The notes under the pieces were generated by a model. The model did no database searches. It was not told the DNA's origin and saw only the letters and a list, made by a program, of their open reading frames with translations. A program made the translations under genes and the position numbers. A stretch of DNA of 33,336 nucleotides from Bacillota bacterium (GTDB taxonomy: Bacteria; Bacillota; Dethiobacteria; DTU022): contig JAUWPV010000017.1 of NCBI GenBank assembly GCA_030611385.1, positions 1 through 33,336 on the forward strand, given 5' to 3'. Shown here one piece after another: positions 2,244 through 32,873 of the stretch. The stretch's first letter is position 1; each line of letters opens with the position of its first letter.

Positions 2244-3077
2244 TTATAGAAGACTCCGCAGTTTTTCTAGGTTGGTGCGATCCCAATCGGTGCCATTTTC
2301 CGGTGTTTCGAGGATAAAGGGGAAATCTTCCGGCCAGCCGTAATTGAGGATGGCGCCGAAACCCTCCGATAAGATATTGCCCTCGCCGATGTGGGCGTGG
2401 CGGTCGACCCGCGCACCGCATTTGACCCCGGTATCATTGACGTGGATGACGTGCAGGTGCTCCAGGCTGACATACTTGTCGAGCTCGCCCAGTGTTTTCT
2501 CCGCCGCCGGGGCGCTGCCGATATCATAGCCGGCCGCCCAGGCATGGGCGGTATCGATACAGACACCCAGTTTGCCCTTCGGGAAAGCTTTAAGGATATC
2601 GCCCAGTTCTGAGAAATTCGACCCCAGAGCGGTGCCGCTGCCGGCGGTATTCTCCAGCAGCAGTTTTACCGAGTCGGGCCAGTCGGGCAACCCTTCGCCG
2701 ATACTTTCGATTATCTGGGTTAAGCCTCTCTCCACACCCTGTCCGCCGTGGTTGCCGGTATGTAAGACCACATACCGAGCCCCGTAGAAACAAGCTCGTT
2801 CCATTGTTTCACCCAGTAATTTTTTCGATCGGATCAGAAATTCCTGGTTATTTGTGGCCAAGTTGATCAGGTAGGCAGAGTGGATTACCAGCGGGGAGAT
2901 GCTGAACTCTTCGAGCAGGGCAGAGCGTTTCTCGATCTCGGAGTTTTCGAGCCTGCCCATCTGCCAGCCGGTCGGGTTACCGGGGAAAATCTGGATCGCC
3001 TGGCAGCCGATTTCGGCCACTCTTTTTACATTTACCGCAAACCCGCCTTTTTGGGGCATGTGTACTCCCAGACGCAC
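2244..3077 (-). CDS. nfo: Deoxyribonuclease IV (endonuclease IV)
   Basis: An AP endonuclease of base-excision repair that cuts 5' of abasic sites using a trinuclear zinc centre in a TIM barrel. The 277-residue length is normal for the family. The metal-ligand motifs appear in order: VIHSAYLINLA, VVLHTGNHGG, LLLENTAGSG, GVCIDTAHAWAAGYD, VIHVNDTG, DRHAHIGEG and ILETPENG. The start codon is GTG at 3077, with GGAGGT six bases upstream (3084-3089). The gene runs in the same direction as radA, 71 bases away, and the two may form a small repair transcript. Confidence 0.95.
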   Translation of the reverse strand: MRLGVHMPQKGGFAVNVKRVAEIGCQAIQIFPGNPTGWQMGRLENSEIEKRSALLEEFSISPLVIHSAYLINLATNNQEFLIRSKKLLGETMERACFYGARYVVLHTGNHGGQGVERGLTQIIESIGEGLPDWPDSVKLLLENTAGSGTALGSNFSELGDILKAFPKGKLGVCIDTAHAWAAGYDIGSAPAAEKTLGELDKYVSLEHLHVIHVNDTGVKCGARVDRHAHIGEGNILSEGFGAILNYGWPEDFPFILETPENGTDWDRTNLEKLRSLL

Positions 3078-3123
3078 GGCTTTACCTCCGCTGTAGTCAA
3101 TATAGTTGGAAAATTAAATCAGT

Positions 3124-4320
3124 CTAGTATTGTTCCCCTTCCCGGTCGGTCAGGAAGGCCAGCATATTGCGGTATGCTTTCCGGTCAATCTGCAGTATCT
3201 GGTTGATCTCTGTGAACTTGCGGCGCACGCTCGCCGTCGAGACACCGTAAGCGGCGGCCAGCTCTTTCTGGGTCAGTCCGAGAAAATGGAATCGGGCCAG
3301 GCAGTATTCAAGCCCGGCGGCCCAGGTCTGCGGCCGATCGACGCGCGGGCCCTGCGGGTAAACCTGGTTGATGAAGTCGAGCCAGATCGCCTCGGCATCA
3401 TCGTAAAATTCTTGACTGTAATAGGCGCTGCGACGCATATTGGCAATGGTGCATTCGATCACCTGCTGCCATTTCCCTTCCCAGATCGGCGCCGGCGGAG
3501 GGTAGTCGCGCAGGCTGATCTCGCGGAAACGCCCCTCTTTATAGACGCGGCATCGGCCGGCCGGGTTTACTCTTTTCAGCTCGAGCAGAGCTACCTGGCG
3601 CAGTCTCTCGTTGACCCAGGGGTTGGCCGCAAAGTCAGCCAGGCTGGCCCGGGCCGTCTCGCAATCTGCGTCACCGTAAAGCCTGACAATCGCCTCTTTT
3701 AAGAAATCGCCGCCCTGGTAGAGGCCCCATTGCAGAGTTTGCTGAAAGCTCTCATTTTCCAGAAGGCGTTCTCTGAACTGTACCCTGTTCAGGTTCTCGA
3801 TCAGCCCGAGCAGCGCATCGTTTTCGGCAGCGTTGAGTCCGCGGTTGTAGGCTTCGCTGTCATCTTCGTCTTCCATTGAGAGCAGCAGGTCCTCGGCTTC
3901 CTCGGCCATGTCACCATCCGGCGTGGCATGCAGGTATTTGAGCAGGCAGCGTTTCGCTTCAAGAAGATCTTCCATCAACCCGTAATTAATGGCCATAAAG
4001 AAGTAGCACTCGGTCAGCTCAGCATCCATGTTCTGGACGATATGCTTGAAAATATAATTGGCCTCTTTCAGCCGATCAACCTTGCTGAGCAGACAGGCCA
4101 GGTTGTAATGGTTTAAAGGGTCGTCCGGACCGGCTTCGACCGCCTTCTGCAGGTAGAGCAGGGCCTTGGAGAGCCTGTTTTTCTGGTTGTAGTAAGTGCC
4201 CTTTTGGGCGTAATAAGAAGCATCCTGGGCGATGGGGATCACCTTCAGACTGCGATCAGCGGTTTTCAGTATTCCTCTGGGCTTATCGGCTCTTCCCAAC
4301 TCTTTCACCGTCACTCTCAT
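3124..4320 (-). CDS. TPR protein with C-terminal helix-turn-helix
   Basis: A soluble protein of about 398 residues with three visible parts. TPR-like helical repeats (AQKGTYYNQKNRLSKALLYL, then repeats around NHYNLACLLSKVDRLKEANY and ECYFFMAINYGL) occupy roughly residues 30-140. A long helical middle region includes an acidic MEDEDDSEAYN stretch. A C-terminal helix-turn-helix follows (LTQKELAAAYGVSTASVRRKF). The combination suggests a DNA-binding or scaffold protein, but I do not know its target. The frame opens at 4374, but ATG 4320 has AAGGGA about 8 bases upstream and gives an ordinary MRVTVKELG start, so it is preferred; the longer form cannot be excluded. No neighbour points to a function. 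Confidence 0.7.
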   Translation of the reverse strand: MRVTVKELGRADKPRGILKTADRSLKVIPIAQDASYYAQKGTYYNQKNRLSKALLYLQKAVEAGPDDPLNHYNLACLLSKVDRLKEANYIFKHIVQNMDAELTECYFFMAINYGLMEDLLEAKRCLLKYLHATPDGDMAEEAEDLLLSMEDEDDSEAYNRGLNAAENDALLGLIENLNRVQFRERLLENESFQQTLQWGLYQGGDFLKEAIVRLYGDADCETARASLADFAANPWVNERLRQVALLELKRVNPAGRCRVYKEGRFREISLRDYPPPAPIWEGKWQQVIECTIANMRRSAYYSQEFYDDAEAIWLDFINQVYPQGPRVDRPQTWAAGLEYCLARFHFLGLTQKELAAAYGVSTASVRRKFTEINQILQIDRKAYRNMLAFLTDREGEQY

Positions 4321-5878: not shown

Positions 5879-5907
5879 TTGACAAGTTGGAATCCGGATG
5901 ATAGATT
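5879..5907 (+). promoter_or_regulatory. Strong sigma-A promoter of exported protein gene 1
   Basis: Perfect TTGACA (5879-5884), 17-base spacer, TAGATT (5902-5907). The A+T-rich tract immediately upstream could act as an UP element. The leader to the GTG at 5975 is about 60 bases. Confidence 0.75.
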
Positions 5908-5974
5908 AATAAACAGCGAGGTCCTTTATGTAAGGCAAGATATTATTAAAACTTTGAAAGGAAGTGTTTAACAA

Positions 5975-6880
5975 GTGAAAAGAACAATCGCATTGGCATT
6001 AGCTGTAGCATTAGTACTGGCTTTCGCCGCACCGGTTTTGGCACAGTCCATTACCCACAGTGCAACTTATGAAATGGACGGCACCATTACCATGAAGAAG
6101 CAGATGGGCCACCTTTGCAACACTGGCGCAGAAATTAAGCAGACCATCGCGGGCAACGGCGTAATGAGCAAAGTCCAGACCGTTTCTATGATTCCTGGCA
6201 GAATCACAATGGATGACGCAAACGACTACGTAGCAGGCGCAACCTCCCTGACCGTAACCACCGTTTGGGAACTCTGCACACCTCCGAAGTATATCTATGA
6301 TGATGGCACCTATGAAGGCATTGTTCATCCAGCCTACCTGTATCCGATGGCTGGCGGTGCTACTTCCACACCTCGCATATGGGCAGGAGTACCGAACGGT
6401 GCATTGGCTGAAGGAGTATGGAATGGTGGTTATAACGTTTCTGAGATAGTTGACTTTAATGAATTTGAAGCAGTCAGCGACCAGATCTGGGCAGTTCAGG
6501 TTGCCGCAGATCCTGGTTTCTCAGGCAACTTATCCCAGAGCGGCGTAGCAGCTTACGGTCGTTTTGATGGAACTGACTATTTCAACATAGATGATGATAC
6601 GTTTGACGACGTAGCTGACGACAGCTGGGGCTGGGAAAATGACGATTGGGGCGTAGTAATAGGTGCTGACTTTGTCGGCGACTACTTCACCATGAATCAG
6701 AATGCCCGCACCTCTCAGGGCACTCTGAAGCGCTACATCAGCGTCAGCAGCCCATGGAGCCATGGTTACCTGATGGAAGACATGAGCGTTGTCGGCAAGT
6801 CTGATATCACAGAAGCATTTGCCCTTGCCAACCTTCCGGCTGGCGCAGACATTCCGGGCCTGTGGTATGACCTCTTCTAG
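5975..6880 (+). CDS. Exported protein of unknown function, paralog 1
   Basis: A 301-residue protein with a clear Sec signal peptide: KR, a hydrophobic core, and probable signal peptidase I cleavage after VLA at residue 23. The mature part lacks a further membrane segment and is acidic, with an Asp-rich stretch near residues 205-232 (DDDTFDDVADD, then ENDDWG) that could bind calcium. It aligns by eye with the next gene: DQIWAVQVAADPGFSG with GQIWYTQVMTNPGHSG, FVGDYFTMNQNARTSQGTLKR with YVGNYFNIDQFAYTSGGELKR (aligned blocks), and an identical C-terminal WYDLF. The start is GTG, behind AAAGGAAG at 5957-5964. It has its own promoter and a strong terminator. I do not recognise the family; a cell-surface or extracellular structural role is only a guess. 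No secretion, sortase or S-layer anchoring motif is visible. Confidence 0.85.
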   Translation: MKRTIALALAVALVLAFAAPVLAQSITHSATYEMDGTITMKKQMGHLCNTGAEIKQTIAGNGVMSKVQTVSMIPGRITMDDANDYVAGATSLTVTTVWELCTPPKYIYDDGTYEGIVHPAYLYPMAGGATSTPRIWAGVPNGALAEGVWNGGYNVSEIVDFNEFEAVSDQIWAVQVAADPGFSGNLSQSGVAAYGRFDGTDYFNIDDDTFDDVADDSWGWENDDWGVVIGADFVGDYFTMNQNARTSQGTLKRYISVSSPWSHGYLMEDMSVVGKSDITEAFALANLPAGADIPGLWYDLF

Positions 6881-6924
6881 AATCGCTTCAATTTAACAAG
6901 TGTTCGTTAGCCTCGCTGATATTT

Positions 6925-6960
6925 AAAAACAGGGGAGATTAATTTCTTCCCTGTTTTTTT
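6925..6960 (+). terminator. Intrinsic terminator of exported protein gene 1
   Basis: AAAAACAGGG (6925-6934) pairs with CCCTGTTTTT (6949-6958), extended inward by GAGA/TCTT-type pairs, and runs into a T stretch to 6960. The position, 45 bases after the stop codon, separates this gene from its paralog. Confidence 0.9.
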
Positions 6961-7034
6961 ATTATCACACTTTTTGCCTTGATCTCTATAAACTTGCGCT
7001 GTTTGGATCCCATCCCACTTTGACCGGAATTAGT

Positions 7035-7063
7035 TTGACAGGGTTTAATTATCATGCTATATT
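7035..7063 (+). promoter_or_regulatory. Sigma-A promoter of exported protein gene 2
   Basis: Perfect TTGACA (7035-7040), 17-base spacer, TATATT (7058-7063). The leader is about 88 bases. Together with the terminator at 6925-6960 this makes the second paralog a separate transcription unit. Confidence 0.75.
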
Positions 7064-7157
7064 TGGAAAGGTATTTGCGTGGAATTGGCAAATGGATCAC
7101 TATGATTATAAACGTTATAGAAACATGGATTATTCGATGAAGGGAAGTGTTTAACAG

Positions 7158-8036
7158 GTGCGGAAATGGTCTTATCTTTATATATTAATTATCGCTATTT
7201 TCCTTATAACCTTAACTACTCCGGTTATCGCCCAGGATAGCAGTCGTTTCGACCATACCATCAATTTCAAGATCGGCGGTTTGATTTTTATCGACAGGTT
7301 GTTGGGCCACGCCGGCACCACCGGGGCCGATAAATACCAGACAGTCCGGGGCTACGGTGATATGACCAAATCGGAAACCGTCAGGATCACCGCCAACATT
7401 ATCGCGATCGACGAAAAAATGGATTGGTCGACTGCAGCCGATGCCCTCGGCGGTCTTACCGTGACAACAACTATCGACCTCTGCAGCCGGCCGATGTCCG
7501 CCGCTACCGAAACATATACCTCCACTACTTCTCCCGCTTATACTGTCTATGAAGATGATATTATCAACGTCTATTCCCTTCCTGTTGTCAGTGGAGATAT
7601 CGATGTTTACGGATTGACCGGGCAGATCTGGTATACTCAGGTAATGACCAACCCGGGCCACAGCGGTAGCTACCACTCCGACTTTACCGCCGCCTACGGT
7701 CCCGGGCCCTATGAAAGAGCATATGGGGCAGTTGCCCCGCAGGGCAATATTTTCTTTTACGACGAGGAATACATGTGGGCCTTTGACGATACTGAAGAAG
7801 ACGGCATCAGTCGCGGCGATTACTATGTGGGCAACTATTTCAATATCGACCAGTTTGCCTATACCTCCGGCGGTGAACTGAAACGCTACTTCAGCATGAG
7901 TAATCCCTTCGAAAACACTTACATCCAAGAAGACCTGGCTGTAACTGGTATGGCTTCGGTCAGGGAAGCTTTTGAGATGAATATATTAGAGGGTGGGCCG
8001 AAGGCGATCACCCTGGCCTGGTATGACCTGTTCTAA
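7158..8036 (+). CDS. Exported protein of unknown function, paralog 2
   Basis: A 292-residue protein with a signal peptide (RKW, long hydrophobic core, probable cleavage after VIA at residue 25). It resembles the preceding gene along the whole mature part. Shared features are an N-terminal GHxxTxGAxxxQT-like block, the DLCSRP/ELCTPP cysteine position, the IWxxQVxxxPGxSG block, the VGxYFxxxQ...GxLKRYxSxSxPxxxxYxxEDxxVxG block, and the terminal WYDLF. It lacks the long Asp-rich stretch of paralog 1 but keeps a shorter acidic segment (DDTEED). It also starts with GTG, behind the same GGAAGTGTTTAACA leader found before paralog 1. This argues for tandem duplication that included the translation start region. 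Function unknown. Confidence 0.85.
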   Translation: MRKWSYLYILIIAIFLITLTTPVIAQDSSRFDHTINFKIGGLIFIDRLLGHAGTTGADKYQTVRGYGDMTKSETVRITANIIAIDEKMDWSTAADALGGLTVTTTIDLCSRPMSAATETYTSTTSPAYTVYEDDIINVYSLPVVSGDIDVYGLTGQIWYTQVMTNPGHSGSYHSDFTAAYGPGPYERAYGAVAPQGNIFFYDEEYMWAFDDTEEDGISRGDYYVGNYFNIDQFAYTSGGELKRYFSMSNPFENTYIQEDLAVTGMASVREAFEMNILEGGPKAITLAWYDLF

Positions 8037-8129: not shown

Positions 8130-8158
8130 AGCCCCCTGCAAATCCGCAGGGGGCTTTT
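8130..8158 (+). terminator. Intrinsic terminator of exported protein gene 2
   Basis: AGCCCCCTGC (8130-8139) pairs perfectly with GCAGGGGGCT (8146-8155) over a 6-base loop and is followed by a short T run. Confidence 0.9.
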
Positions 8159-8204
8159 CCGTCTAGATGGTTGTGCTGCAAATATAACCGATCATTATCT
8201 TGAG

Positions 8205-10071: not shown

Positions 10072-10998
10072 TTATACTTTCGGGCGGGGGTATAAGCCGG
10101 CCCGCTCGACGATTTCAGGAATAACTTCTTCCCAGGCTATGGCCATAATATGAACGCCAGCTACACCTTCGATCTCTTTCAATCGCTGGATGGTCTCAAT
10201 GGCTATCTTCAGACCTTCTTCTTTTTTCTTTTCTGCTCCCGTCATCCGTTCGATCAGCTCATCAGGAATAGTGATCCCGGATACATTGTTTTTCATGTAC
10301 CGGGCCGCTCCGAGCGATTTAATCGGGGTAACTCCGCCGAGTATCGCCACTTTCTTGTGCAGGCCGCGCTCGCATACCATCTCCATCCACCGCTCAAAGC
10401 GGTCGAGATCGAAAATACACTGGGTCTGGATAAAGCTGGCTCCGGCTTTGATCTTCTTCTCGAGCCGGTCAACGCGGTACTCAAAGGGATCGGCAAAGGG
10501 GTTTTCCACCGCCCCCAAGAAATAGCTGAGTTCACCATTAAGCTCTTCTCCACCCATGAACTTCTTCTCGTCGCGCAGATCTTTCAGTCCCTTTAGCAGC
10601 TGCATCGAGTCAATATCAAAAACGCCCTTCGAGCCAGGTTCGTTACCGAATTTCTGGTGGTCGCCGGCCAGGCAGAGGATATTCTTGACACCGAGAGCAT
10701 GAGCGCCCAGCACATCACTCTGGATGCAGATACGGTTGCGGTCGCGCACGACAATCTGAATGATCGGTTCCAGGCCCATCTGAACCAGGGTAGCGCCGCA
10801 GGCGATGCTGGAGGTTCGCACGATTGCCGTCTGGTTGTCGGTGATGTTGTAGGCTTCGACGTGGTTACGCATTCCTTCAGCGTGGTGCTTAAGTTGAGTG
10901 AGATCGGCGCCCTTCGGCGGCCCGAGCTCACCGGTTACTACAAATTGTCCACTGTTTATTGTTTTTTCCAGTTTGCTACCCGCGATCAATTCTAACAT
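10072..10998 (-). CDS. metF: 5,10-methylenetetrahydrofolate reductase, catalytic subunit
   Basis: Reduces methylene-THF to methyl-THF, the last methyl-branch step before the corrinoid protein in the Wood-Ljungdahl pathway. The 308-residue protein shows the family TIM-barrel features: VVTGELGPPKG near the N-terminus, ITDNQ, NILCLAGDHQKFG, FIQTQCIFDLDRFERW and ILGGVTPIKS. ATG 10998 is used here, but GGGAGG directly abuts it. A TTG at 10989 has proper nine-base spacing and may be the true start (305 residues). The gene overlaps metV by up to 23 bases, which suggests translational coupling and a MetVF complex. No rnf, hdr or hydrogenase subunits are adjacent, so the electron donor cannot be read from this window. 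Confidence 0.93.
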   Translation of the reverse strand: MLELIAGSKLEKTINSGQFVVTGELGPPKGADLTQLKHHAEGMRNHVEAYNITDNQTAIVRTSSIACGATLVQMGLEPIIQIVVRDRNRICIQSDVLGAHALGVKNILCLAGDHQKFGNEPGSKGVFDIDSMQLLKGLKDLRDEKKFMGGEELNGELSYFLGAVENPFADPFEYRVDRLEKKIKAGASFIQTQCIFDLDRFERWMEMVCERGLHKKVAILGGVTPIKSLGAARYMKNNVSGITIPDELIERMTGAEKKKEEGLKIAIETIQRLKEIEGVAGVHIMAIAWEEVIPEIVERAGLYPRPKV

Positions 10999-11656
10999 CC
11001 TCCCTTACTGAGGTTCTTGCGCCCCCACCATGATGCGATTTTGACCAGTCCTTGGGAGGCTGAATCTCCTCGAGGTCAGACAGGCGGCCGAATGCAGAAA
11101 GGCGTTCATGGATCAGATGCCAGGCGCAATCTACATCTTTGCCTAATTCACATTTGCCTTCAGCCGAACCACCGCACGGTCCGTTGAGGATGCTCTTGGC
11201 ACAGCGGGTGATCGGACAGATACCCATAGTCAGGTCCAAAACACAGTCGCCACAGCCGAGACAGCGCTCTTTCCAAACACCCTGTTCGGTGGGGTAACCC
11301 ATCGAAGTCGTGTTCAGGCCGGGCAATACTCTAAGCGAGGGGACATGCTCGACTATAGTCTGCACTCCGACGCCACAGGCGAGCGAAACGATGACGTCAT
11401 AGCTTTTCAGCTTTTCGAGCACCTCATCGATCATCTCAAACTCACACTGTCTTTCAATCGAAAATACTTCCACTTCGCCGTCCACGTTTTCCTTCTTGCG
11501 GTGTATGCGGAGAAGCGTTGCTGTTTCTTCAGCTTCCTTCTGGCCGCCGGCCATACAAACAGCTACGCAGGTGTTGCACCCGAGAACACAGACGCGTTTA
11601 TACGGGGCTGCCATAGCCGCAATTTCTTCAAGCGGTTTACGCTCAGCGATAATCAT
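10976..11656 (-). CDS. metV: MetV, cysteine-rich partner of methylene-THF reductase
   Basis: The partner protein of MetF in acetogens, with the methylene-tetrahydrofolate reductase C-terminal-like domain. The 226-residue product is rich in cysteines: CVLGCNTCVAVC at the N-terminus, then CLGCGDCVLDLTMGICP and further pairs (RCAKSILNGPCGG, GKCELGKDVDC). These are likely ligands for Fe-S clusters or zinc. MetV is known to be needed for MetF activity in MetVF-type enzymes. Start ATG 11656 follows AAGGAAGGTGAGTAT. It is located 58 bases after acsE and overlaps metF, so it belongs to the same operon. Confidence 0.9.
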   Translation of the reverse strand: MIIAERKPLEEIAAMAAPYKRVCVLGCNTCVAVCMAGGQKEAEETATLLRIHRKKENVDGEVEVFSIERQCEFEMIDEVLEKLKSYDVIVSLACGVGVQTIVEHVPSLRVLPGLNTTSMGYPTEQGVWKERCLGCGDCVLDLTMGICPITRCAKSILNGPCGGSAEGKCELGKDVDCAWHLIHERLSAFGRLSDLEEIQPPKDWSKSHHGGGARTSVREDVRIDRG

Positions 11657-11714
11657 ATACTCACCTTCCTTTCTTTCTTACAAGGTATTCTTTGTATTTT
11701 ACCACATGTCAGCT

Positions 11715-12560
<846 letters not shown>

Positions 12561-13535
12561 TCAGCTGTTGTCCTTCATCAAATCGTCGATACTGCTCTTG
12601 ATTACTTTCAGGGCTTCGGGGTGACGCATGACCAGGATATCAATGCCAGATTGCAGATAAGCCATGGCCGTGGTAGTTTCCCACAGCAAACCGCGCTCTT
12701 CCTGCTCTCCCCAGCCAGGTTCATCTTCAGTCGGTGAGTTTGCTTCCTTGGCCCGCCAAGCTTCGAGACCGACGTTTCCGATCATCGGCATGGCCAGCAT
12801 CTTATCACCCTGAAGGGCGCCGTTGCGGGCCCGTTCCATGATCGAGTAAGAATACTCAATACCGTAGCCGAGAGCAGCTATAGTCGGGTCGACAATGATC
12901 CGGTTAGCCATGGCGGTGCTCATTTCGGCAATGAGAATGTTCAACTGTTTGCAGATATTTATATCAATCGGCGACTGGGCAATGATATTGTGCTGGTTAG
13001 CCATGCAGGCGCTGGTAACCGCCTTGTAGTTCTCTAATTCCGCCACACCGAGCAGCAGATTTTCACCGGCAGCCGCTTCGGCGATCGGGTTGTAGATGAG
13101 GTTATCTTTTTCGGGTTTACCGCAACCGACGATAATCAGGGGCACCCCAACTGCTCCGAGGACCTTCTTCACAATCGCAGCGCAATCTTCCGGAGAAGAG
13201 TCGCCAAGATCGGGGTCGGCACTCTTCAGACGGATCTGGATCATTTCAGCGCCGAATTCTTCGACGCATTTCCTGGCCCAGGCGGCCGGGTCGCTCCACA
13301 CATCACCGTAATGCTTTTCAAAACAGGGATTCCATTCAGTGGGAACTATATCCCACACTTCAAGAACCAGTACCGGCCGGTTGGGTATTTCTCCTTCAAA
13401 GTGGAGAAAAGGCAGGGCCTCTTCGCCGCCGACAGTAATGGTATGGCTGCGGGTTCCGCCCTGGTCACTGGTTGCTCCGAGGACGACCTCGCCTACTTTA
13501 TTTCTATATTTTTCCTTAAGGATTTCTACAGCCAT
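12561..13535 (-). CDS. acsD: Corrinoid/iron-sulfur protein, small subunit
   Basis: The small subunit of the heterodimeric corrinoid/iron-sulfur protein, which carries the methyl group between AcsE and acetyl-CoA synthase. 324 residues, a TIM-barrel protein recognised by [20 protein letters not shown] near the N-terminus, [36 protein letters not shown] and a C-terminal [14 protein letters not shown]. Start ATG 13535 follows AAAGGAGC. The 127 bases separating it from acsC contain a palindromic repeat, the only sizeable interruption within the operon apart from the cooC-acsA gap. Confidence 0.96.
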
Positions 13536-13578
13536 TTAAATGCTCCTTTCATCAGGTGTTTCCAGAATGCGGCAGGGT

Positions 13579-13616
13579 TTTCATCCCCACACCGGCCTCC
13601 CCCTTTAAGGGGAAGG
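13579..13616. repeat. Dispersed palindromic element, copy 2, inside the acs operon
   Basis: TTTCATCCCCACACC is followed by a stem built on CCCC (13600-13603), loop TTTAA, GGGG (13609-13612), with outer CCT/AGG-type pairing (13596-13598 with 13614-13616). It aligns with the copy at 8205-8240. It lies between acsC and acsD and will be present in the operon mRNA. Confidence 0.55.
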
Positions 13617-13662
13617 GAACAATGCTGCTTCGGGTATAGCAATCCATACACTAAGCAGGTTT

Positions 13663-14991
13663 CTATGCAAAATTATCCTTGGAGAACTTTGTGATACCGG
13701 AAGCTTCGCGCGGGCCGACCATTACTTCCCATCCGGACTCTTCTTCAAGAGCCCCTTTGAGCACGGCCACATAACCAGGAATAACAATCTTGCGATGTTT
13801 TATTTTTTCTTCCAAACCGGACTTTTTAATCGCCGCTGCAATGATTTCAGCCGAGAATTTATTGTCGGCATATGCCGTCAGCACAGAGATTCCATTGGTG
13901 TCGACCGACAAGATACGGCTGGGAATGCGGGAACTTTCCACTTCACCTTCGACGATAAAGTAAGTCAGGGAGAAATTCGTGGTTACATACACAGGAGAAT
14001 TTTCACTGGGAGTGCCTACATCATAGAGTTTTGCTTCAACAGCGATCGGTTTCTGCGGGTCTGTGTAGAGATTCTGGCGCCAGGAGAGCAGTGGTAACAG
14101 CTGCTGCTTCTCGCATGCTTTCAGAACGACAATATCAGCGTACTTGCTTAGATAGACACAGGCCTGAGCCACTTCTTCCCGGGGATCTTCTTTACTGGTA
14201 ATGGCAATGGTCGGGTAACCGAAGAGACGGTATTTTTTGCGTACCGCCAGGCGACGGAACTGGGTCAGATTGGCCAGCACTTTGCTGGTTTCACAAGCCC
14301 CGCTATCGAGAACAAGTTCCTTGTAATCAAGGGCGACAATCTTTTCGACCAGTTCGGCAGTTTCATCGAGACTCTTGCCCCTGACAGCGAGCGGGCATCC
14401 TTTACTTTTGGCCAGTGCAGTCATTTTTGCGTAGTTCTCGGCAGTAGCGGCATAAACCAGGGGTTTCCGATCGGCAACAACGGCGAGAGCCCCTTCCATA
14501 ATAGCCGGATCTTCAGCCAGCAGAATCATCGCTTTTTTGGTCTTGCCGGCCACGGCCTCAATAGCTGCCTTAAATTTGGCCGCATCGCCTGAATCGCATT
14601 TCACGGCGACCATGTCAGTAATATAATCCATACCGACGCGGTGGAATTCGAGCGCATCAAATTTTTCCGCTTTGGCGGCGGCGTCATCAGTGTCGCTGAT
14701 CAATACGGCAATACCGGTCGGGTGGAAGAAACGCTTGTCATGACGGAATATTTCTGTCTCTTCGCCGAGTTCGACAATATGATCTCCGACGCCAACTTTG
14801 ACCATTTTGATCGGAGGAGCCGAGGCAGAATCAAGGGCCGCCTTTGCCTCGTCGGTTACATACGGACAGGTATCAAGCGAAGCTTTAGCTGAGGCCAGGG
14901 CCATGGCGAAAGCCAGGCAGGTCGGCAAACCGCATTCTTTACAGTTTGTTTTGGGTAGATGTCTATAAATCTCTAAACCGGTTAAACCCAT
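13663..14991 (-). CDS. acsC: Corrinoid/iron-sulfur protein, large subunit
   Basis: The corrinoid- and 4Fe-4S-bearing subunit of the methyl carrier. The Fe-S motif is near the N-terminus (NCKECGLPTC, then LDTCP about 16 residues later). A TIM-barrel middle region and a C-terminal corrinoid-binding domain follow (LLSWRQNLYTDPQKPIAVEAKLYDV and VTTNFSLTYFIVEGEVES as separate blocks, VDTNGISVLTAYADNKFSAE, VGPREASGI). ATG 14991 gives MGLTGLEIYRHLP, which agrees with the usual N-terminus, and AGAAAGGAG lies ten bases upstream. A second in-frame ATG at 15042 also has a good GGAGG site and would add 17 residues. 442 residues with the chosen start. Confidence 0.95.
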   Translation of the reverse strand: MGLTGLEIYRHLPKTNCKECGLPTCLAFAMALASAKASLDTCPYVTDEAKAALDSASAPPIKMVKVGVGDHIVELGEETEIFRHDKRFFHPTGIAVLISDTDDAAAKAEKFDALEFHRVGMDYITDMVAVKCDSGDAAKFKAAIEAVAGKTKKAMILLAEDPAIMEGALAVVADRKPLVYAATAENYAKMTALAKSKGCPLAVRGKSLDETAELVEKIVALDYKELVLDSGACETSKVLANLTQFRRLAVRKKYRLFGYPTIAITSKEDPREEVAQACVYLSKYADIVVLKACEKQQLLPLLSWRQNLYTDPQKPIAVEAKLYDVGTPSENSPVYVTTNFSLTYFIVEGEVESSRIPSRILSVDTNGISVLTAYADNKFSAEIIAAAIKKSGLEEKIKHRKIVIPGYVAVLKGALEEESGWEVMVGPREASGITKFSKDNFA

Positions 14992-15078
14992 TAATTGTCT
15001 ACTCCTTTCTTGTGTTGCTAAATTAAAAGGCTGCGGTTTCATTGTCGCCTCCACCGAAGCTTTGGTTCTTATTCCGGA

Positions 15079-17292
15079 TTACATCAGCGGATCCATGGTC
15101 AGGGCCGGATGACCCTTTTCTTCAAGGAAGGGCAGGATTTCTTCTGCTGTCATACCGACGGTTTCATCGGCGATTTTTTCGATGAAGTCAGCTCCCAGGC
15201 CCGCTTCTTCAGCCCGCTGGCGCAGAGCGTCACCGAGTGAGTCTTTCAGCTCCTTGGGCATCCAGACTAAACGGCCCAGACCACCGTCAGCGCTGATGAA
15301 CTTCTTGCTTAGCACATACGCGCGTCCGTGGCCCATAAAACCGGGGGTCTGAATCCCACCGCCAATTGAACCGGCCAGGGTGGAGAAGGTCATGCCAACG
15401 GGGGTGTCGCCGCTGTACTCGCGGGTGGTAATCATTACCCCGTTTGCTTCGGGCAGAATAGCCATAATGCACTCGAAACAGCCGCAGGAGGTCATCGGAC
15501 GATCCATAAAGCTGTACATCGAACACTCTTCAATGGTCCGGTTGGTGTTGTTATAGACATATTCATTAACGGAAGCCCAGATGCCTTTTTCTGCGTCCAG
15601 CAGGCCCTCTTTCTTGATCGGACGGTTCGGGCCGGTCGGGCTGATTTCAAAGGCCGCCTTGCCGTCAAGCCAGCTGACTGCGCCGCAGAGCCCGAGCCGT
15701 TCTGGGGTAACCACGCAGCAGTGGTTGGGAGCAAAGGACTGGCAGAGAATGCAGGAGTAAAACTCCTCGACCGATTCATCGGTAAGGCCTTTTAAGCGCT
15801 CGTTACGGGCGCTGTAGAAAGTGCGGGCCCGGACGAGCTCTTTTTCAACCTTCGCGGCGTCAGTAATCAGGGTGACCTGAACACGGTCGACTATGGAGGG
15901 GAATTCGTCTTTAAATTTGGCTACAAGTAGTTCACCGTAGTCCCTGACCTTGAAGCCCTTGGCGGCGGCATCCTTGCTGATCCTCATCCAGATCGTATCG
16001 CGCTGGGCCATATGCCAGAGGCCTTCACCGTAGTTGATCAGATAGTGAAGACGACGCTCGAGAACGCCTTCGAAGTCTTCCTGCATCTTGCGGCCGAAGA
16101 TCTTGACCATTAAGCCCAGGGGCAGGGAACTGCCTACTTCGACATCGTCAATTTCGGGACCGATAACCTCGATCTTGCCATCTTCGATATCACCCTCGTC
16201 AACCATTTCCACCAGCTCAAAGCCGGTGGTACGGCCTCCTCCAAACTCAACGTGCATATCACCCTTACGGATGATCTCTCCTTCAAAAGCAGGGCCGACG
16301 GTAATCGGGATCGGAATGTCGAGAATTTTCAGCTTGATACCACGAATTTCCATGGCTACCTGGACAAGATCATCATAATCGGGATGTGATACATACCAGT
16401 TCGGAATCTGCTCGTCTTTGGGAAGCTCCTGGTCGGTAATAACCGGGAAACCAAGGAAGATCGCGGCAAAGTGCGCGGCTACCTGGACTTCATCGATCTC
16501 GCCCAGCTGGAGCACAAAAACGCGCACCCGTCGACGCTGGTAGTCGCGGGTATTCTGGCGCTCTCCTGCCGGAATCCCACCGAATGTCATACCAGCGCGC
16601 AGGGCGTAGTTCACAGCGTGGATAACCTGGGTAAAGTTTCCAATAGGGAAAGCAATGAAGTCGATACCGAGCTTGCAACCGGCCTCGATGGCCTGCTCAA
16701 TCACCTGGTTGCAGAGGAAGATCATGAATCCTTTACTCTGCAGGTCCTGGATCAGCTTGCCGACGGCCTCGCTCGACTTGCCCTTACCGTTGATTACAGC
16801 CTGGCCGGGAATAGTCCAGTCGACCAGAAGGATGCCGTAACGGCGAACTACCGGATCGCCCAGGAAACCAGTCCACGGATCAACGTGCGGCCTGGCCCCG
16901 TCGAGGTAGCGTAGGGCTTCGATGATTTCAGCCGAGTAAGCGGCTGCTTCTCCGCAGAGGCGAGCATTAGCAAAGTTCAGCTCCTCATAAATCTGGTTGC
17001 GCATACGGTTGAGGATCGGGGGCAGATCACCCAGCTTTTCTACGGCCTCACCGCTTAAAGCCCTGATTACAGGCAGGTAATAGGCGGTGTCGGGATAGGC
17101 AACCGGTTTGTCGGGACCAAACCGTTTGATGGCCTGGTTTAACAGTATTTCGGCATAGCTGGTAGCGATAACGGCCCCGTCATATGCCTTTTCAAATAGT
17201 TTTAACGGCGGATTCGACTCGTCGACAGCGCCGTCGAATATCTCATCGAACGATTCTTTCCAGTCTCGGGTCAGAATACCATCACTGCTCAT
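15079..17292 (-). CDS. acsB: Acetyl-CoA synthase (CODH/ACS beta subunit)
   Basis: Joins CO, a methyl group from AcsCD and CoA at the nickel-containing A cluster. 737 residues, the full bacterial three-domain form that docks on AcsA. All six A-cluster cysteines are present with family spacing: Cys514, Cys517, Cys526 and Cys536 (in SCILCQSFAPNHCC and RLGLCG), then Cys603 and Cys605 in SCGCFEC. ATG 17292 (MSSDGILTRDW) has AAAAAGGAGG eight bases upstream and is preferred over an in-frame upstream start at 17349 that would overlap acsA. Separated from acsA by 28 bases. Confidence 0.97.
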   Translation of the reverse strand: MSSDGILTRDWKESFDEIFDGAVDESNPPLKLFEKAYDGAVIATSYAEILLNQAIKRFGPDKPVAYPDTAYYLPVIRALSGEAVEKLGDLPPILNRMRNQIYEELNFANARLCGEAAAYSAEIIEALRYLDGARPHVDPWTGFLGDPVVRRYGILLVDWTIPGQAVINGKGKSSEAVGKLIQDLQSKGFMIFLCNQVIEQAIEAGCKLGIDFIAFPIGNFTQVIHAVNYALRAGMTFGGIPAGERQNTRDYQRRRVRVFVLQLGEIDEVQVAAHFAAIFLGFPVITDQELPKDEQIPNWYVSHPDYDDLVQVAMEIRGIKLKILDIPIPITVGPAFEGEIIRKGDMHVEFGGGRTTGFELVEMVDEGDIEDGKIEVIGPEIDDVEVGSSLPLGLMVKIFGRKMQEDFEGVLERRLHYLINYGEGLWHMAQRDTIWMRISKDAAAKGFKVRDYGELLVAKFKDEFPSIVDRVQVTLITDAAKVEKELVRARTFYSARNERLKGLTDESVEEFYSCILCQSFAPNHCCVVTPERLGLCGAVSWLDGKAAFEISPTGPNRPIKKEGLLDAEKGIWASVNEYVYNNTNRTIEECSMYSFMDRPMTSCGCFECIMAILPEANGVMITTREYSGDTPVGMTFSTLAGSIGGGIQTPGFMGHGRAYVLSKKFISADGGLGRLVWMPKELKDSLGDALRQRAEEAGLGADFIEKIADETVGMTAEEILPFLEEKGHPALTMDPLM

Positions 17293-17320
17293 TATTCGTG
17301 CCTCCTTTTTCGCGATTTGT

Positions 17321-19291
17321 TTACCATCCGGCGGATAGTGCGGTTTCAAATTTTTCAGCGGTCTGCTGATGTATTTTCAATTTCCAGGTACGTTCATCAA
17401 GAGCGCCCAAGATCTTTTCGACGGACTTTTCAAGATCTTCCTCCCATATAAAATAACCACCAAAGACATCTTCGGCAATCTGCAGAGCAATGCCGTTGAC
17501 CAGGGCGCTTCCGGTTACCTCGGGGACAACACCAACGTGGGTCGGTATACCAAGGGTAACACACCCGCTGCCGATAGATATGGCTTTCTCGCTCATCGCT
17601 TCCGGTGCGGAGGCAACGAAAGGAACCTTCGGAACGTCAACATCCCATTGGCGGGCCAGGGCGGTTGTAAAATCATGAGCCCTTGAGTTGTCCACACAGG
17701 AACCCATGTGAAAGACCAGGGGCAGTTTTTCCTTTAATTTCTCTTGATTGGCATCGTTCAGGGTCTTATAGAAAGCTTTCAAGCCTTCACCGGCGTATTT
17801 TTCCACGGCCTCATCATTCATCAGGCCGAGCTTGGCAGCGGTGCCGGCAGCACAACCGGTGGCGAGTAAAAGAACGTTGTGCTTAGCTAACTCCTTAATG
17901 ATATGGGCACCGCTGGCGTCATGGAGCACGCGCAGGTTGTTGCAACCCGCCAGCAGGACAACTCCGCGCAGCTGGCCGGAATCAACGGCATCGGTGACAA
18001 CCTTGATCGGCTCGTCGGGATTAACCGCTTTGAACAGATCCTCCATCGCTTCCATACTGAAGCCTGCGGTCACTTTAACCTTCACGTCGGGGATATCGAC
18101 ACCTTTACCCTGGCGCTCTTTAAAAGCCTCAATCGCAAGATTGATTACTTCGCGGGCTTTCTCGACAGCGCGACTCTCGGTAAATTCCACGTGGTAAGAA
18201 CCCGGAATCTTTGAATGCGACATAGTCGTGATGATGCGGGTATGGTAGCATTCGGATACCGCTTTAATCCCCGGCATAATACACTGAACGTCGACAACCA
18301 TTGCATCGATAGCACCGGTCATAATCGGCAGTTCCTGCGAGAGGAAGTTGGTCAGCATCGGTACACCCTGGCGCATCAGCACCTCGTTACCGGTACAGCA
18401 GACACCCAGACATTTGACACCTTTTGCTCCTACCGCTTCGGCTTCCGCTTTCATGTCGCGAGCTACGCGCACAATCATCTCGCTCAGGAGCGGATTGTGG
18501 CCGTGTAAAGCGATATTAACCATTTCGGGATCGATCACCCCGAAGTTTGCTTCTGTAGTCACCGGCTTCGGTGTGCCGAAGAGAATATCGGAGAGGTCGG
18601 TGGCAATGTGCATGCTAATGTAGTCAGCAAGGGAAGTTTTCAAACCCTGGAAGATCAGGTTAACCGGGTCGGCGTCGACGCCCATATGAGTTTGACCCAT
18701 GACCTCGGCAATGGTCGTATGGACTGAACGCGGTTGGATATTGCATTTGTTAAATACCTCCATGCGGCCTGGAACAACCGTTGTTTCCAGCCATTTACAC
18801 GGTTCATCACTCATCTTTGAGAAATCAGCCTCGGCAAGAGCAACAACCTCTTTAAGTAATTCCATGTCTTCTTTACCTTCAACGGTGAGGCCAAGCCTTT
18901 CAGCCACCCGGCGCAGCTTTTCCGGATCCTCGATGGCATAGTCCGGCGCTTTACCTTCAACTAGCTCATGAATGGCGTAAAACATGTGCCGACTGTGGTC
19001 AGCGTGGGCTCCGCAGCCGCCGGCAATGGCCCTGATCAGGTTACGGGCAACAATGGTATAGCCGTGGGCGCCGCAAACGCCCTTGGATGATTTCTTGGTA
19101 ATACGGCAGGGGCCCTGCAAGCAGATTCGGCAGCAGACGCCGGTGCGCCCGAAGTTGCATTGGGGCTGCATTTTTACATAGCGATCGTAAGCGGTTTCTA
19201 CCTGGCCGTCGCGATCATTTCTGTCAATAACAGCCAGCGCCGCCGGATCAATTGTCCTTCGGTTGTCAATCTTTTTCTTTTCTTCGGACAT
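17321..19291 (-). CDS. acsA: Carbon monoxide dehydrogenase catalytic subunit
   Basis: Interconverts CO and CO2 at the Ni-Fe-S C cluster and sends CO through the internal tunnel to AcsB. 656 residues, normal for the monofunctional bacterial type. N-terminal B/D-cluster cysteines are visible in CNFGRTGVCCRICLQGPCRI and KGVCGAHG. C-cluster ligand regions follow: the histidine in NIALHGHNPLLSEM, and cysteines in GVCCTGNE, DVQCIMPG, LAGCNNLRVLHDASG, LATGCAAGTAAK and MGSCVDNSRAHD. Start ATG 19291 follows AAAGGAGGT. The C-terminus is complete. Confidence 0.97.
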   Translation of the reverse strand: MSEEKKKIDNRRTIDPAALAVIDRNDRDGQVETAYDRYVKMQPQCNFGRTGVCCRICLQGPCRITKKSSKGVCGAHGYTIVARNLIRAIAGGCGAHADHSRHMFYAIHELVEGKAPDYAIEDPEKLRRVAERLGLTVEGKEDMELLKEVVALAEADFSKMSDEPCKWLETTVVPGRMEVFNKCNIQPRSVHTTIAEVMGQTHMGVDADPVNLIFQGLKTSLADYISMHIATDLSDILFGTPKPVTTEANFGVIDPEMVNIALHGHNPLLSEMIVRVARDMKAEAEAVGAKGVKCLGVCCTGNEVLMRQGVPMLTNFLSQELPIMTGAIDAMVVDVQCIMPGIKAVSECYHTRIITTMSHSKIPGSYHVEFTESRAVEKAREVINLAIEAFKERQGKGVDIPDVKVKVTAGFSMEAMEDLFKAVNPDEPIKVVTDAVDSGQLRGVVLLAGCNNLRVLHDASGAHIIKELAKHNVLLLATGCAAGTAAKLGLMNDEAVEKYAGEGLKAFYKTLNDANQEKLKEKLPLVFHMGSCVDNSRAHDFTTALARQWDVDVPKVPFVASAPEAMSEKAISIGSGCVTLGIPTHVGVVPEVTGSALVNGIALQIAEDVFGGYFIWEEDLEKSVEKILGALDERTWKLKIHQQTAEKFETALSAGW

Positions 19292-30197: not shown

Positions 30198-32873
30198 ATG
30201 CAAACTGGGACAACAAAGAAAAATAAGGGTGAAAGAAAAACTCAGGAACGGCAAACTGAGAAGAAGAGATATATTAAAAAAACAGCGGAGTATGTGTTAC
30301 TAACAATTATGGTTATTATCGTAACTCTTTTACTCTTTGTCGGCCCGTTTATGCGCGGCCTATTTTTCCCACGCGAACTTCTATTTGCCAATGCTTTCGT
30401 TTTTGGCCTGTTGATTATTTGGGGTTTGTTCCGTATTATAAAAGGCGAAGGCCTTTTTATTAACTCGTCCCTCGATATCTGCCTGGCAGTACTTTTTCTT
30501 GCCTATGTAGCTTCATTTTTTGTCGCCGTCCATAAACGTGATGCCCTTACTGAAGTGTTTAAAACTGCTTCTTATCTAATAATATATTTAGTTGCACTTG
30601 ATATCAGCCGTTTCTACTACCTGCCCTGGATGAAAAAAAAACCAACTATAAATGAAGTTGTTAAGGGAGATGCCCGGTCTGTGCCTCCAGGAGCAAACCT
30701 CCTCTTACACCTCGCACTAATATCTGCATTTGCAATTGCGATTGCCAGCATCGGAATTGTTGCCGGTCACTGGGATTTTCCATATTCGTACGTTAACAAT
30801 CGAATCGCTACACCAATCGGTTACGCGAATACAGCGGCGGCTTATTTGATGGCCGCTTACTTTCTTGCTGTCGGCCTTGCCCCACTTGCCAGAAAGTGGC
30901 TCAGAGTGATCTACTTGGCTATAGCTGTAGTAATTCTATTGGTAGTGATCCTAACTTATTCACGGGGGGCCTGGTTGCTACTGCCACCACTTGGTTTACT
31001 CCTTGTGCTGGTTTCAGCTCCAGGCAAAAGACTTCGGTCTTTTTTATATCTTCTGTCAACTGGTTTAACAGCTGCAATAATGGCTTTGTTTGCCAGTTCT
31101 ATTATTCAATCCAGTTCTCCTATCCTAATATGGCCTGTGGTTCTTGCTTCTTCTGTGGTGGTTATTCTGCTTGGTTTAATAGTAGATCTATACTTCAACC
31201 AGGACCGCAAGTTCCGCTTTGCTTTAGCATCTGTTATAACGACATTTTTGCTTTTATTCCTTATTGTTACAATCGCTGTGCCGCTATTTTCACCACTTCA
31301 CTTAGAAACTTCAGTCAGTGAACCAGTCCAGATCAAGACTTTAGAACAGGTGATCGATAATGTTTCTGCTGGCGAGACCTATAAGCTTACCCTTGAGGCC
31401 AAAGCTGATTATTATATACAACCTGAGACTGAACTCCCTGAATATATCTGGGGAATCAAAGTTCTTGGCGGATTACCCGGCTATGAATATGTAGAACTCC
31501 TTGATTATCGAGCAGGCGTAACTAAAAATTGGCAGAAGAAAGAGTTTGCTTTTCAAACAAACGAAGACATTAATCGCCTCGAAGTTCATATCCTTAATCA
31601 GTGTCCGGGAACTTCAGTGACTGTTCGTTCTGTCATACTCAGCTCAGCTGGTAAAGAGCAAAATTTAAGCTTTGCCTTTAACCGTATTCTGCCACAGCGT
31701 TTTTATGATCGAATCTTCTCTTATTCCAGCGATCACAACGTTGATCGGCGATTCGAGCTGTTTCGCGATGCTGTCAAAGTAATCAAAGACTATCCAATCC
31801 TGGGGCTCGGCGGTGGCGGCTGGGCAGCGGTATATAAAGGTTACCAGGAACAGCATTATAATTCAAAGCAAGTCCATAACCACTACCTGCAGGTTTGGGT
31901 TGAAGCAGGTATATTCGGATTTTTGGCTTTTATCGGTATCTGGTTGAGTTTTACTGCTATTTTTGTGCGTAATTGTTATAAAGATAGAGTTTCGCCAGAA
32001 GTGCGTAATCTATGGACAGCTTCTTTTATCCCTTGTGTTGCTCTGGCATTGCACAGCGCTATTGACTGGAATTTTGCATATACTTCTGTTGGCATTTTCT
32101 TGTTTGTTTTAATTGGGGCCGGCATCAGTATGAATCGTAGACAATGGGTCAATTACGATAAATCAAACAAGAGAAAATCTGGTCATGGCGGTCTCTTGAT
32201 CGGCATCTTAGCAATTATAATCGGTATTTCCATGCTGATTTATACAATTAGCTTGATCGTTGGTCTTTATGCTACCTGGCAAGCACAGGAGCTTATGGCA
32301 CAGAACAACCTGAAACAGGCCACAATGGAGATGGAAAAAGGTATTCGTTTTGATCCGTTACGAGCTGATAATTACCATAACCTGAATATTTTACTTGAAG
32401 GTCAGGTTTTACGAACACAAAACCATGCCACAATCCAGAACATGCTTTTTCTCGCCCAGCAAGCCTATGAACTTGAACCTTATAATATCTACTACATCAC
32501 AAGATATGGTCAATTACTGTTAAATTATGTTAATATTGAAGAAGGACTTTCCTACATAGATCGAGCTTATGAGTTAACTCCGTTCATAGAAAGCAGCTAT
32601 CTATATTCGGCTTATTCACGACTTACTCTCGCTGATTTTTATATTGAGTCCGGCAATCCAGATAAAGCGAAACCTTATTTAGTTGAAGTACTGGAACTTG
32701 AAATTATAATGGAAGAAAAATACGACAGCAGCGAACCCCTTACTTTTGCTCTTGGTCGAGCCTGCCATTTGATGGGAGATAAATCTTCTGCAGTTAAATA
32801 TTATACTGCAGTTCAGGAAAGCGATCAGTATTATAACGAGGCACAACGTTTCCTGGCAGAAATACTTGAATGA
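30198..32873 (+). CDS. O-antigen ligase/polymerase-like (Wzy_C) membrane protein with C-terminal TPR-like repeats
   Basis: An 891-residue protein. A basic N-terminus is followed by about eleven hydrophobic segments up to residue 362. A soluble, probably extracytoplasmic, beta-rich segment spans residues about 370-475 (ETYKLTLEAKADYYIQPE, VTKNWQKKEFAF, SVTVRSVILSS). The Wzy_C/O-antigen-ligase signature lies near residues 530-570 (LGLGGGGWAAVYKGY, VHNHYLQVWVEAGIFGFLAF). More membrane segments end near residue 693, then TPR-like helices run to the C-terminus (AMEKGIRF-type repeats, YITRYGQLLLNYVNIEEGLSY, ALGRACHLMGDKSSAVKYY). The family polymerises or ligates glycans at the membrane; the substrate here is unknown. 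The gene is visibly richer in A+T than the acs and housekeeping genes, which may indicate recent acquisition. It overlaps nothing upstream and almost abuts the next small gene. Confidence 0.82.
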   Translation: MQTGTTKKNKGERKTQERQTEKKRYIKKTAEYVLLTIMVIIVTLLLFVGPFMRGLFFPRELLFANAFVFGLLIIWGLFRIIKGEGLFINSSLDICLAVLFLAYVASFFVAVHKRDALTEVFKTASYLIIYLVALDISRFYYLPWMKKKPTINEVVKGDARSVPPGANLLLHLALISAFAIAIASIGIVAGHWDFPYSYVNNRIATPIGYANTAAAYLMAAYFLAVGLAPLARKWLRVIYLAIAVVILLVVILTYSRGAWLLLPPLGLLLVLVSAPGKRLRSFLYLLSTGLTAAIMALFASSIIQSSSPILIWPVVLASSVVVILLGLIVDLYFNQDRKFRFALASVITTFLLLFLIVTIAVPLFSPLHLETSVSEPVQIKTLEQVIDNVSAGETYKLTLEAKADYYIQPETELPEYIWGIKVLGGLPGYEYVELLDYRAGVTKNWQKKEFAFQTNEDINRLEVHILNQCPGTSVTVRSVILSSAGKEQNLSFAFNRILPQRFYDRIFSYSSDHNVDRRFELFRDAVKVIKDYPILGLGGGGWAAVYKGYQEQHYNSKQVHNHYLQVWVEAGIFGFLAFIGIWLSFTAIFVRNCYKDRVSPEVRNLWTASFIPCVALALHSAIDWNFAYTSVGIFLFVLIGAGISMNRRQWVNYDKSNKRKSGHGGLLIGILAIIIGISMLIYTISLIVGLYATWQAQELMAQNNLKQATMEMEKGIRFDPLRADNYHNLNILLEGQVLRTQNHATIQNMLFLAQQAYELEPYNIYYITRYGQLLLNYVNIEEGLSYIDRAYELTPFIESSYLYSAYSRLTLADFYIESGNPDKAKPYLVEVLELEIIMEEKYDSSEPLTFALGRACHLMGDKSSAVKYYTAVQESDQYYNEAQRFLAEILE

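Follow-up and report, generated by a model that had tools for sequence, protein, structure and literature searches.

Two neighbouring genes for exported beta proteins with a common aromatic C-terminus, and a candidate surface role for their family

Genes A and B and their expression units

The window, the whole stretch of 33,336 nucleotides that was analyzed, stems from an uncultured acetogen-like bacterium and carries two neighbouring genes for exported proteins. Gene A (5975..6880, + strand) codes for 301 amino acids and gene B (7158..8036, + strand) for 292. Both start with GTG, as the first-pass annotation had read them, and both products are predicted to be exported. They are full-length paralogues with 31% identity in BLASTP (E 9e-36), and the alignment score of the mature proteins lies 41 standard deviations above that of shuffled sequence, which bears out the proposed relatedness along the entire length. 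This relatedness and the common tail far exceed chance. Mature A and B are acidic (pI 4.05 and 4.24, respectively) all-beta proteins.

The signal peptides were assigned by eye, as were the transcription starts. That of A (5975..6046, +) spans about residues 1-24 (...APVLAQ) with n-, h- and c-regions and a VLA site, and that of B (7158..7235, +), read from the sequence, spans about residues 1-26 (...TPVIAQ); both cleavage points are putative. An N-terminal beta domain of three long strands follows in A (residues 26-100; 6050..6274, +; AlphaFold2 pLDDT mostly 73-97), which occurs in long members of the family only. The core beta domain of A (residues 166-285; 6470..6829, +), with strands at 170-194 and 236-284, is the sole part in common with short members. 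The core of B (residues 150-278; 7605..7991, +) was delimited by BLASTP and family comparison. The N-terminal domain as a duplicated core was considered and found unsupported (hhalign probability 0.5%). The C-terminus had been described as a fixed WYDLF. Both A (6863..6877, +) and B (8019..8033, +) do end in these five residues, but it is W-x-x-[LM]-F that the main subfamily keeps throughout; that both tails have -YD- is in part coincidence. At the level of sequence, an architecture of predicted export signal, core beta domain, optional N-terminal beta domain and free C-terminal W-x-x-[LM]-F could be shown.

The AlphaFold2 model of A, built from 19 sequences, has a mean pLDDT of 64 and a pTM of 0.62, with confident long strands at 26-44, 52-73, 76-100, 170-194 and 236-284 and values mostly below 50 from residue 285 on, the tail included. 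A short-form model (mean pLDDT 63, pTM 0.45) shows a small helix at the tail W. The tail is not confidently attached in either model; both are of middling confidence and, being single-chain, have little bearing on assembly.

Each gene has its own predicted promoter. That of A (5879..5907, +) reads TTGACA-17-TAGATT and matches the consensus at 10 of 12 positions, that of B (7035..7063, +) reads TTGACA-17-TATATT with 11 of 12, and both carry an extended -10 TG. TTGAC and the -10 core of the A promoter are kept in eight A-type copies from several genera, whereas the B-type genes of relatives have a conserved promoter form of their own, TTGACAG..CATGCTATAGT. Downstream of A, a Rho-independent terminator (6925..6968, +; placed at 6925-6958 by the scan) was found, with a matching AAAACAGGRGAGA..TCTC(C/T)CCTGTTTTTT in two relatives (L138 and L149). 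Gene B is followed by a strong terminator-like element (AGCCCCCTGC..GCAGGGGGCTTTTC; 8130..8160, +), whose GC stem at 8130-8156 was found by eye and missed by the scan because its short T-run lies under the threshold. The separate promoters and terminators claimed earlier were thus recovered, and the dedicated strong expression units proved to be conserved across genera. The abundant products that had been deduced from them, and the surface layer, matrix or filament proposed as their role, are conjectural: the units are real, but codon bias (A 0.695, B 0.703 vs. 0.68-0.79 for ribosomal proteins) is no pointer to unusual abundance. The separate, conserved, near-consensus promoters would fit high and independent expression, to which the codon bias is neutral either way.

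The predicted 5′ end of the A mRNA carries the Shine-Dalgarno-like leader element AGCGAGGT (5915..5922, +), which is invariant in all eight A-type leaders (several genera) and lies about 8 nt past the -10 box, at a predicted start site. GAGGTG matches the Shine-Dalgarno consensus; the window copy reads GAGGTC. At 5915-5934 of the window, AGCGAGGT is followed by an ATG-TAA start-stop. The lake relative L079 has GTG-TAG there, and most others have no start-stop. The ribosome-binding region of A (AAAGGAAGTGTTTAACAA; 5957..5974, +) has the same context 5′ of B. In the 1.76-Mb genome this start context of 18 bases, GGAAGTGTTTAACARGTG, has exactly two occurrences, at A and B (statements on the whole genome of the window rest on searches); the common start context noted before is genuine. 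By its sequence it is the Shine-Dalgarno or ribosome-binding region, and relatives read AAAGGAGTGTT..GTG. An Rfam search gave no credible RNA element.

In the window (g1), in L031 (g13) and in L138 (g4), the pair is located between a yhaM-like HD/OB gene and hbd-crt; L135 and L139 (g4) and L149 (g5) give partial views with the same gene order around it. The expectation of tandem pairs among homologues is thereby supported. In the tree, the B-type genes form one clade (8 rows, including gene B, with support 100/100), which excludes the A-type genes of those genera. The duplication is therefore older than the genera and, judged from the tree, is ancient.

Further along the window, positions 10072-19291 (-) carry genes for a methylene-THF reductase, a pterin-binding methyltransferase and CODH/acetyl-CoA synthase; the gene content is that of a Wood-Ljungdahl cluster, known from acetogens and from bacteria that oxidise acetate syntrophically. 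A gene at 30198-32873 (+) encodes an O-antigen ligase-like protein (Wzy_C) with TPR repeats. It was possibly acquired, and its third-position GC is 0.36 versus 0.47-0.69 in the other measured genes.

Range and forms of the family

The pair had been assigned to no recognised family, and this assessment stands, as neither sequence nor fold matched a characterised one. Against Pfam, NCBIfam and PHROGs, A (Pfam negative), B and their relatives gave only unrelated names below threshold, a sequence search of the PDB was empty or weak, and Foldseek with the two models found no credible match in the PDB. Foldseek matches to perforin-like and gasdermin pore proteins were rejected, as their TM-scores of about 0.1 reflect only long beta strands. 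By these searches the A/B family is previously uncatalogued.

Within the class of the window, the family was found in 28 of 98 genomes, all of them in one bacterial family (28 of 43 there, 0 of 55 in the others). A phylum-wide sample of 398 genomes gave two matches, both in that same bacterial family, and none in the approximately 393 genomes elsewhere. A scan of 84,980 species genomes yielded 15 loci, by title 12 in Syntrophomonadaceae MAGs, two in Bacillota and one in Hydrogenedentota; it was run with peptide patterns, which distant members may escape. The last of these (L080, PUMX01000049.1) is a 3-kb contig with two A-type genes in a MAG titled Candidatus Hydrogenedentota and is probably misbinned. 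The NCBI titles of relatives are mostly 'Syntrophomonadaceae' MAGs, many from soda-lake sediment. Since most of these MAGs are fragmented, copy numbers are minimum values and absences carry limited weight. As far as homology searches tell, the family is real, multi-copy and clade-bound. Searches for phages and plasmids found nothing and thus gave no sign of mobile import.

Several forms can be distinguished. In the main subfamily, long members of about 260-480 amino acids combine the N-terminal beta domain with the core, and short members of about 135-220 amino acids consist of the core alone, the most reduced of them keeping about 50 core residues followed by a long low-complexity linker. The export segment of the short members L082-L092 ends in a conserved TGF[TS] in most cases and not in A-x-A, so signal cleavage may be unusual in them. 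Furthermore, larger core proteins without the tail were found, one per genome in 14 genomes. They mostly measure about 315-451 amino acids and carry acidic, Ig-like-looking extensions with no Pfam match. One of them, L048, has a membrane segment as its C-terminus. The tail-less protein in the genome of the window (L029, G000:C46) is an adhesin-like protein of 867 amino acids with the core domain in its middle; it lies on a 4.8-kb contig, where a neighbouring gene resembles a serine recombinase. In addition, profile comparison identifies a distant subfamily, A5, of about 200-310 amino acids as homologous to the core (probability 97%, E 2e-11), and most A5 copies have an aromatic C-terminus of their own, [GA]-[FW]-W-x-x-P. 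Besides A, B and L029, the genome of the window encodes a linker form of 135 amino acids (C50) and two A5 members (C53 and C28).

The C-terminal tail and its possible role

All 54 complete members of the main subfamily in the first collection have W-x-x-[LM]-F as their C-terminus, in two cases with an additional Y, and no such end occurs among the 665 other genes at these loci. This rules out chance as the source of the shared tail and upholds its conservation across homologues. The usual form is W-aromatic-[DE]-L-F. Of 52 members, 46 have W, H, Y or F at the fourth position from the end, and 42 have D or E at the position after it. Two looser ends, WSDLY and WNDFF, turned up among linker forms that joined the collection later. 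As all members are homologous, the tail could reflect mere inheritance by descent, with no special role. This is very improbable, given that W, L and F are unchanged in proteins whose remaining sequence has drifted to about 30% identity and whose linker has been remade.

At the DNA level, the genome of the window has 32 matches to W-x-x-L-F-stop, and the real gene ends among the 30 loci read are A, B and C50. Across 43 related genomes, in which 40 candidate stretches were read, W-x-[DE]-L-F was found outside the family, among the stretches read, in at most three proteins at two loci, a count near chance, for which residue frequencies give a rough expectation of 0.4. One locus (L232:2-1921 and 2712-3959; G047:C48) holds two nearby non-family genes with ends WFELF and WLELF and common C-terminal InlB-like repeats. 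The genome is 58% complete, and no homologue of the pair was found in the other 42 genomes. The other (L233:200-1294, - strand; G014:C81) encodes a phage-like coiled protein which ends in EWWDLF. As it has no signal peptide, its tail was taken as probable chance. Judged from these gene ends, the tail is practically private to the A/B family, which makes it more likely that its partner belongs to the family too. Occurring with this core and hardly elsewhere, it seems to go with the core, as expected of a core-binding peptide.

The favoured reading, tentative and with a probability of about 40%, is that A and B founded, as an old tandem pair, a lineage-restricted family of acidic, all-beta surface proteins exported by Sec, and that the tail is a docking peptide through which core domains are linked to form a polymer or coat outside the cell. 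The main rival is a C-terminal sorting or retention signal that a specialised apparatus at the surface would recognise for export, wall attachment or processing; such a signal would be of a new type with a role like that of LPXTG or PEP-CTERM. The tail stays at the extreme C-terminus despite very different linker lengths, tail-less members carry other C-terminal features such as the membrane segment of L048, and the unrelated InlB-repeat pair ends in a similar way, all of which a sorting signal would explain. A general signal would be expected on many exported proteins, however, and among the loci read in the genome of the window only family members have it, with merely two further loci across the 43 genomes; moreover, no hydrophobic segment or basic end lies beside it. 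A sorting signal is possible on this balance but rather unlikely.

The spacer between core and tail bears on a further explanation. Among 61 tailed members it measures 11-15 residues in 47 and 54-95 in 14, so the tail has been kept however far it lies from the fold. The near-fixed spacing of the majority is what would be seen if the tail docked in cis, as a cap folding onto its own subunit, and the family were stable soluble extracellular proteins, e.g., binders of ligands or ions. The same tail on the long linkers, its undocked position in the models and the larger core proteins that manage without it make such a cap unlikely.

Peptides of similar appearance are known from other settings. The end [DE]-x-F-COOH resembles a PDZ class III ligand, and with D or E at that position in most members the tail might be read by a PDZ-type extracytoplasmic protease (HtrA or Ctp) that serves in quality control or in regulated release. 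The W that is invariant at the fifth position from the end is not required of PDZ ligands, and a motif nearly confined to one family speaks against this role as well, which is considered improbable. The tail also resembles DNA-clamp and FxxLF receptor peptides; both were rejected because the proteins of the A/B family are exported.

Under the docking reading, the tail would possibly form a short amphipathic turn that brings W, L and F (i, i+3, i+4) to the same side, and it would dock in a core-domain groove of another subunit. Its unattached position in the monomer models would agree with this. This docking would link the subunits to an extracellular polymer, coat or fibre at the cell surface, with the tail-less core members as chain ends or anchors and the members with 54-95-residue linkers as flexible or branching subunits. 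One larger tail-less core protein per genome fits an acceptor-only terminus; a point against it is that in several genomes with tailed members, some of them fragmented assemblies, no tail-less member was seen. The dedicated promoters conserved across genera would fit a structural product, and the aromatic C-terminus that subfamily A5 keeps may be counted in favour of docking. The codon bias, which lends no support to exceptional abundance, is a point against the docking reading, and recognition of the tail by a separate receptor would look identical in sequence. More specifically, the family might represent a new kind of extracellular polymer in bacteria of Gram-positive type, in which W-x-[DE]-L-F plugs the core of the next subunit and tail-less paralogues form the chain ends, but this version is doubtful.

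The bacterial family to which the window belongs is prominent in soda-lake sediments, and its members possibly oxidise acetate in syntrophy with partners (PMC6704655, PMC6295475). In the literature searched, no description of their cell surface was found. The genome lacks the usual SLH system, and a clade-specific, multi-copy secreted family with a near-invariant C-terminal peptide is a strong candidate for a main surface structure.

Comparison with known systems

A and B resemble SLH-type S-layer proteins in being exported and acidic and in having strong promoters. The SLH domain (Pfam PF00395) was found neither in A and B nor anywhere in the genome, which is 99.4% complete, so an S-layer of the SLH type, one form of the surface layer suggested in the first-pass annotation, is unlikely. 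Sortase substrates (LPXTG) are likewise exported proteins with a short conserved motif close to the C-terminus, and the genome has one sortase; A and B differ from such substrates in having no LPXTG, membrane segment or basic end, and their motif forms the very C-terminus. As in the outer-membrane beta-signal, a beta-rich protein ends in F, but the D or E third from the end breaks the alternating hydrophobic pattern.

For the leader of A, the STAB-SD of cry3A, an mRNA stabiliser, offers a parallel (PMC4113751). In position and sequence, the points on which this comparison rests, the Shine-Dalgarno-like GAGGT(G) at the predicted 5′ end of the leader and away from the start codon is similar, and AGCGAGGT is possibly a STAB-SD-like mRNA stabiliser.

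Finally, the TasA/camelysin fibres of Bacillus assemble by donor-strand exchange, in which TasA donates an N-terminal beta strand (PMC9674648). The Pfam models of TasA/camelysin had no match at E<=1 in 18 members, and the Foldseek comparison with the PDB, looked at for a beta-sandwich like that of TasA, gave no credible match, though from models with a pLDDT of only 63-64. Both systems consist of secreted all-beta subunits in a Gram-positive lineage, a terminal segment may link the subunits in each, and an accessory member may form the fibre end, TapA there and the tail-less members here. In contrast to the N-terminal beta strand of TasA, the putative linking segment of the A/B family is a C-terminal aromatic pentapeptide.
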